Source of the DNA: Thermoprotei archaeon
GTDB taxonomy: Archaea > Thermoproteota > Thermoprotei > Gearchaeales > Gearchaeaceae
Direction of reading: 5' to 3'
Assembly (NCBI GenBank): GCA_017857595.1
Contig: JAFMCU010000010.1
Span: forward strand, 1-50,617
Length of the DNA stretch: 50,617 nt
A model generated the notes under the pieces. The model worked only from the letters and a program-made list of their open reading frames with translations, made no database searches and had not been told where the DNA came from. Shown in pieces: positions 1,010-50,617 of the stretch; the first letter of the stretch is position 1; the number at the start of each line of letters is the position of its first letter. Both the position numbers and the translations under genes were made by a program.

Positions 1010-1283
1010 TTGACTTCCTCCCCGCTATTTATAACGAGGGTTCCTCCCATTGATTCGAGCTACATATTTCGCTTGAGAAGAAGTTGAGAAGTCCATAAAA
1101 CCACTCCCATTTGATGAATGTTCTGTATAATTATATGCTGTATATTGCAATACTGAACCACTCTCAGAGGGACAATCTTCATTTCGATGCTTGCTCTTAT
1201 TGCTTGATTGCGCTTCATTCAAAGAAATTTTTTAGAGATTTAAATTCCATCCCCGCCCTAAAAAGCGAGGCTTTCAATCTTTT
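1010..1283 (-). mobile_element. Miniature IS200/IS605-type element derived from a tnpB transposon
   Basis: Read on the minus strand, this segment follows a TTAC (1287-1284) and begins with GAAAGC and a hairpin, CCTCGC pairing with GCGGGG across a T-rich loop (about 1274-1252). It ends with a second hairpin, CCTCG...CGGGG, near 1020-1040, then GGAAGTCAA. Just inside the left end, the frame starting at 1218 reads MKRNQAIRASIEMKI, matching the start of the full TnpB at the other end of the window ([16 protein letters not shown]). The rest is too short to encode TnpB. I infer an internally deleted, non-autonomous copy (PATE/MITE-like) of the same family, mobilised in trans. The right boundary is inferred from the hairpin and from TCAA, as in IS608, and is uncertain by several bases. 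Confidence 0.75.
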
Positions 1284-1386
1284 GTAATGATGAATGATAA
1301 TTTTCTATATATTCATTCAGTTAAGGACCGAAGAATAGTTTTGTTTAAAATAATTTATTAATTTAACTAATGAAGACAATTATATA

Positions 1387-49893: not shown

Positions 49894-50007
49894 GTGAATA
49901 AAAGAGAAGTTGTAATTGTTGATGCTATAAGAAGTCCTATTGGAAAATATGGGGGATTATTAAGTTACATAAATGAAAGCTTCACCATTTATGGCGGGGA
50001 TGAATAG
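49894..50007 (+). pseudogene. Acetyl-CoA acetyltransferase cut by a transposon after codon 25
   Basis: GTG 49894 starts MNKREVVIVDAIRSPIGKYG and GLLSY, a textbook thiolase N-terminus. After TTAC (49965-49968) the frame runs into the left end of the TnpB element, adding 12 alien codons before TAG at 50005-50007. The rest of the thiolase should lie beyond the right end of the element, outside the window. Thiolase would complete the operon after the two crotonases (32-base gap), so loss or relocation of its N-terminus matters for the pathway. Confidence 0.85.
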
Positions 50008-50617
50008 ACTTAAATAATAATTTTCTAAAATTGATCAATGACTAGGAGGAATAATGCGATAAGAGCAACTGTTTCAATGAATATCGCAATTTCAGAAACC
50101 CTCTTAGTCTTTTCCAAAAAATATTTAGAATCTTTAAGATATGTTCTTTATTGGTTAAAAGAAAAAAGAATTAATCCAAATAAAGGAAACGTTATAAGCA
50201 TTGTACATAAAGAACTATATAAAATACTCAAGAGTTTCAACCTTCCTTCAAAAATAGCACAAGACTGTTATAGAAATGCATTATCAATATACAAAGGCTG
50301 GCATAACAATCCTAAGAAAGGAAGATTTCCTATAATTTACAAACCAACAGTTTGGTTAACGCCAAAATTATCATATACAATAGATTTCGAAAGAATGGTT
50401 GTAAGAATATCTAAGCTTGGAGAGTTTAAAATTTTGGGATATCCAAGAAACATAAAAGAATATTTATCTTGGAAAATGAAGGAAGCAAGATTAGTAATTC
50501 GCAATGGTAAAGCTTTTATTAAAATAACCTTTGAAAAATTTATTCAAAAAATTGAGCCTAAAGATAGCATAGCAGTTGATATAAATATGCAGAACATAAC
50601 AGTAGGAAAAGATGAGA
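49969..50617 (+). mobile_element. IS200/IS605-type TnpB element (left end and 5' part)
   Basis: The element begins directly after the target-like TTAC. Its left end has GAAAGC and an imperfect hairpin (CTTCACC pairing with GGCGGGG around ATTTAT), then GATGAATAGACTTAAATA. The same order, TTAC then GAAAGC, hairpin and GGCGGGGATG, marks the miniature element at 1283. It carries tnpB but no tnpA upstream within the left end, so it is probably an IS1341-type (tnpB-only) element. The right end is outside the window. Confidence 0.82.
50038..50617 (+). CDS. tnpB: TnpB-type RNA-guided nuclease (5' part)
   Basis: 193 codons seen, open to the window edge, starting at ATG 50038 with [16 protein letters not shown]. 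The N-terminal helical region includes [15 protein letters not shown] and a [14 protein letters not shown] segment (the SxxxGxxxxxP-like wedge region of TnpB). The first RuvC motif is [10 protein letters not shown], giving the catalytic aspartate near residue 180, and the rest lies beyond the edge. TnpB cleaves DNA beside a transposon-associated motif, guided by an RNA from the element's right end. Activity cannot be judged without the RuvC-II/III parts. Confidence 0.88.

Follow-up and report, generated by a model that had tools for sequence, protein, structure and literature searches.

A short repeat near one end of an archaeal contig raises the question of whether a transposon that has lost its nuclease gene could still supply guide RNA to a nuclease encoded elsewhere. 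The window analyzed here (50,617 nt) is one entire contig (C30) of the 1.47-Mb draft genome of a Thermoprotei archaeon (G000); the nearest relative compared, G001, belongs to the same genus. An initial annotation had placed a 274-bp miniature element on the minus strand at positions 1010 to 1283, and these coordinates proved correct to within one base (Table 1). The element lacks an intact transposase-length frame and is too short to encode a transposase. The annotated order of TTAC followed by GAAAGC was found, although the two are not directly adjacent: AAAAGATT (minus strand) sits between TTAC (1287-1284) and GAAAGC, with 8 nt separating them (6 nt in the TnpB element of the window). The other copies described below are flanked by TTTAC/TTTAT.

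The element contains the left hairpin CCTCGCTTTTTAGGGCGGGG, with 8 of 8 pairs formed, as well as GGCGGGGATGGAATTTAAAT and the annotated start codons MKRNQAIRASIEMKI, which resemble the TnpB start at 50038. Both of its hairpins are fully paired (8/8) near-terminal palindromes of the IS605 type and are common to tnpB and tnpA elements; the left-end hairpin also occurs in tnpB elements and ahead of a tnpA fragment on contig C23 of the same genome. The TATA-like box between this hairpin and the start codons is a possible archaeal promoter, and the DNA flanking the element beyond its right end would be the guide. The linker in the middle of the element could not be traced to tnpB. A short linker motif similar to TTCAGTATYGCAAT (window 1172-1111) reappears in mini-elements of G001 (L096 and L099).

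Table 1. Positions of the mini-element, its parts and the related TnpB element within the window
Feature	Position	Strand	Length or pairing	Basis
Mini-element, probable non-autonomous IS200/IS605 element	1283 down to 1011/1010	minus	273-274 bp	
Target flank TTAC, the expected insertion and TAM motif	1284..1287	minus		Sequence; flanks of other copies
Left tip AAAAGATTGAAAG	1271..1283	minus		Top conserved segment across copies, mean pairwise identity 0.89
Left-end hairpin CCTCGCTT TTTA GGGCGGGG	1251..1270	minus	8/8 pairs	
TATA-like ATTTAAAT, ~20-27 nt 5′ of ATG	1238..1245	minus		Sequence and copy alignment
Leftover tnpB start codons MKRNQAIRASIEMKI	1174..1218	minus	ATG + about 15 codons	Translation
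Linker common to all copies	1111..1172	minus	~62 bp	Alignment of copies
Predicted omega-RNA scaffold region: tnpB 3′-end-derived sequence and right end	1011..1110	minus		G001 right-end alignment; weak HgcC match; fold
Internal stem B and loop, CTTCTCA (1080-1074) / TGGGAGG (1049-1043)	1043..1080	minus	7/7 pairs	
Right-end hairpin CCTCGTTA TAAA TAGCGGGG	1020..1039	minus	8/8 pairs	
Right end GTCA(A)	1010..1014	minus		Alignment to complete elements
Related TnpB element (left end plus tnpB codons 1-193), ended by contig end	49969..50617	plus		

The kinship of the left end with the TnpB element of the window, claimed in the initial annotation, was borne out by local alignment, which scored 71 where shuffled sequences averaged 24.6 (SD 4.3, maximum 49, n = 1000). 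Since the tnpB gene of the window is cut by the contig end, the complete element of G001 was used for comparing the right ends. The mini-element aligned to it over its final ~100 nt with 74% identity (E 8e-12) and a score of 106 versus 22.6 for the shuffles (SD 3.4, maximum 42; z = 24.5); for both ends, 1000 dinucleotide-preserving shuffles were generated. The annotation had regarded retention of the guide-RNA scaffold as a possibility, and the right-end match, far above chance, reveals that the mini-element kept this region, which is homologous to a tnpB right end.

The complete TnpB of G001 (387 residues) is 90% identical to that of the window over the shared part and is bounded by the same left and right ends as the mini-element. 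Its match to PF07282 exceeded the Pfam cut-off and that to PF01385 fell short of it; inspection by eye also showed RuvC-like and zinc-finger motifs. Pfam assigned no family to the 193 codons of TnpB present in the window, and a PF01385 search of the G000 genome gave no match. The G000 draft holds neither a complete tnpB nor a complete tnpA gene, tnpA being represented only by a fragment at a contig end, and nothing related turned up in a scan of viral contigs. The TnpB element of the window (tnpB at 50038-50617) follows TTAC at 49965-49968, in the first part of a thiolase-like frame (VNKREVVIVDAIRSPIGKYGGLLSY; window 49894-49968), and, by our reading of the sequence, seems to interrupt that gene; two enoyl-CoA hydratase-like genes adjoin it.

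The genome search for further copies that the annotation had proposed was productive. At least eight long copies are present in G000, namely the one in the window, one each on contigs C1, C55, C50, C57 and C3 (the last cut by the contig end) and two on C58, besides several fragments. All long copies have one layout and are 61-82% identical pairwise, with the window copy lying nearest to the family consensus (87%, versus 75-81% for the other copies). Because the linker is common to all copies, the deleted form itself must have multiplied. The annotation was right that the mini-element keeps both ends, and its suggestion that the scaffold was kept too is supported. The element is not, however, a recent deletion product of the TnpB element located 49 kb away; it belongs to an older family that has been amplified and whose copies have a common layout and linker. 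That tnpB gene is a relative of the family rather than its direct parent, as decayed tnpB remnants elsewhere share more of the start codons of the mini-element, judged by eye. Independent deletion derivatives do occur, an example being locus L076 of G001, and one could imagine that several TnpB elements suffered separate deletions and never formed a mobile family. The linker and layout shared by all eight copies in G000 contradict this explanation, which we regard as extremely improbable.

The alignment of copies bears equally on the idea that the function of the element resides in a small peptide joining the start and the end of TnpB. The family consensus does form a nearly continuous frame of ~57 codons, but single copies carry frameshifts or interruptions, and the ATG is absent from some of them; the frame starting at the tnpB codons is broken in other mini copies. 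A peptide role is very unlikely and was rejected on account of these frameshifts.

The locus was also compared with its counterpart in G001. The two orthologous genes that flank the element are separated by ~465 bp in G000 and by ~106 bp in G001, and the shorter intergenic region indicates that the insertion is missing from the relative, whose intergenic DNA is too diverged for a precise empty site or junction to be read. As the element lies between two divergent genes and lengthens the region between them, it might act mainly as a promoter or spacer for these genes. A generic promoter scan, which relies on a bacterial model and is thus weak evidence, showed no excess of sites, and we regard such a principal role as very improbable. 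Two more types of mini-element, with the same ends and different middles, were observed in G001 (L088, L096, L104 and L110); they have an additional segment ahead of the right hairpin, and the differences in their stem B consist of paired changes.

The fold of the tnpB right ends comprises a stem A helix, stem B and a terminal hairpin; it also has a GACU strand that could base-pair with AGUC at the end of the element. Most of the pairing kept in the mini-element is no proof of an RNA role, because the end hairpins should serve TnpA as well; stem B lies outside these two predicted TnpA-binding hairpins. It covaried across tnpB elements and other types of mini-element: in 22 right ends, 133 of 154 stem B pairs were formed, compared with 114 when the arms were swapped between sequences (p = 5e-5), and the same arm-swap test gave p 0.006 for the non-autonomous types alone. 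These p values are rough, since related sequences do not count as independent and the arms were placed manually. Manual placement was chosen because MAFFT misplaces one base, and the pairs were counted with our own script. Within the G000 mini family, stem B did not covary (42 pairs, versus 42.5 with swapped arms).

In the window copy, all 23 of 23 pairs over the three stems are formed despite 7-9 stem substitutions, where 17-19 would be expected. When substitutions were simulated from an ancestor represented by the family consensus or by a perfect hairpin, this retention had p <= 0.004 across three transition/transversion ratios. The same pair-keeping tendency was found in one of the copies on C58 (C58a), and none was found by this simulation in C50, C1 and C58b; several mini copies in G000 have decayed stems. 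In energy, the window scaffold folds only slightly better than shuffled sequences, which is unremarkable (z −1.45).

These data bear directly on whether the family is a plain non-autonomous transposon relic, which was spread by TnpA and carries the scaffold as inherited baggage with no working guide RNA at present. The decay of several copies, the divergence spread along the entire element and the stem B of the G000 mini family, which does not covary, are all consistent with a relic. Less easily reconciled with it are the preservation of every checked pair in the window copy, the covariation of stem B in other types of mini-element and the retention of ~100 nt of scaffold where a hairpin alone might serve TnpA. 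On balance, we give the relic about even odds.

As a description of the element, we consider it highly probable that it is a non-autonomous, PATE/MITE-like member of the IS200/IS605 group that TnpA would mobilize and whose transcript could act in trans as a guide for TnpB. TnpA-driven movement follows from established IS200/IS605 biology; the TnpB model has been set out in PMC8612924. In the scheme that we propose, a TnpB element would have lost most of tnpB, and the deleted form would then have multiplied. A Y1 TnpA provided from elsewhere would move the element as single-stranded DNA by means of its two subterminal hairpins and insert it 3′ of TT(T)AC. The transcript of the element would be processed so that the right-end scaffold is left with flanking sequence as a guide, and a TnpB from elsewhere would load this guide and cut the emptied site, favoring restoration of the element. 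The steps that we infer are the movement through TnpA, the transcription of the element and the provision of guides in trans; that the transcript could become a guide RNA is suggested by the kept right end, which corresponds to an omega-RNA scaffold, and by the TATA-like box that remains.

Judged by its anatomy, the element can be classed as a PATE-like non-autonomous IS200/IS605 element, and nearly the same anatomy is known once, from Halanaerobium. PATEs may also be discussed in a 2023 study (Nature) of how TnpB relates to the spread of transposons. The PATEs of Haloquadratum walsbyi likewise lack a transposase and possess near-terminal palindromes related to IS605-type transposons, and some of them originated when loss of the core left the two ends fused; however, that description predates the omega-RNA and does not deal with a guide-RNA scaffold, whereas ~100 nt of scaffold are kept here (PMC3119063). 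The PATE-like element of Halanaerobium hydrogeniformans combines a hairpin at the left end with the final 58 nt of tnpB and a complete right end (PMC7290912). In contrast to that single bacterial copy, the elements described here form a multi-copy archaeal family and include tnpB start codons and a linker. The omega-RNAs of ISDra2 (PMC10097598) and of SisTnpB1 from Sulfolobus islandicus (PMC10640517) share with the predicted one a right-end scaffold, a last hairpin, an end strand with the capacity to pair upstream and a guide beyond the end; the mini-element differs in lacking the tnpB gene. The ISDra2 omega-RNA comprises a first helix, a pseudoknot between the scaffold end and an upstream strand, and a UUUA-tetraloop stem near the guide (PMC10097598). 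By their position, these stems would correspond to those of the scaffolds described here.

A further link emerged from the Rfam model of the orphan archaeal RNA family HgcC (RF00062). The function of this RNA was called unresolved in a 2017 genome paper (PMC5732400). Of the HgcC RNAs expressed in Thermococcus kodakarensis, three come from within transposase genes and run in the sense orientation; a further two have no transposase gene associated with them (PMC4247193). The model matched the window copy weakly at 997-1123 (16.2 bits, E 0.21) and the tnpB right end of G001 with an E value of 3.8e-4; the right ends are matched full length, and the others align in the same register. Neither the window copy nor any match in the class reached the HgcC gathering threshold of 50 bits, the best match in the class scoring 45.7. 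The window element appears, from its sequence, to be related to HgcC and is not filed as HgcC.

Matches to the HgcC model at E <= 0.001 were present in 34 of 81 genomes of the class. The best 70 places were sorted by eye from the fetched loci and then tallied: 27 end a tnpB frame or remnant, 12 have no tnpB and carry a left-end-like hairpin ~150-340 nt upstream, 19 are solo hairpins in which a left half and a right half are fused, and the remaining 12 were placed in none of these three classes. On the basis of these model matches, HgcC appears to represent the right end, that is, the omega-RNA, of IS605 elements. The simplest reading would be that HgcC-like RNAs are omega-RNAs of such elements and that tnpB-less copies are common in this heat-loving group of archaea. 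An open-access literature search found no paper dealing with HgcC and TnpB together.

We put forward only tentatively, as a possibility that we hold to be somewhat less probable than its opposite, that transposons consisting of guide RNA only are recurrent in Thermoproteia. Such elements would lack tnpB and have a promoter and a working omega-RNA; TnpB acting in trans would restore them after excision, so that each copy would add a guide to a shared nuclease, and HgcC would be their omega-RNA, including the members outside transposase genes. If tnpB-less copies do supply guides, one nuclease gene would serve many dispersed guides, and this sharing, if true, would come close to the split between guide and effector in CRISPR systems. 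The element is of interest because its scaffold has been retained and recurs in the class, and because of the connection with HgcC; the identity suggested for the HgcC RNAs can be checked in existing transcriptomes.

The solo elements measure ~40 bp and include L008 and L012 in G000, L087, L091 and L093 in G003, and L157, L165, L174 and others. Their hairpin, with one half from the left end and one from the right, is as expected from recombination between two similar hairpins. G003, which belongs to the same order, carries an unusually heavy load of 57 TnpB matches in a 1.8-Mb genome. Finally, a second TnpB subfamily is represented in G000 by L160 (C42, 195-367), where the C-terminal 144 codons lie at the contig start and an HgcC-like right end scores 36.7 bits.
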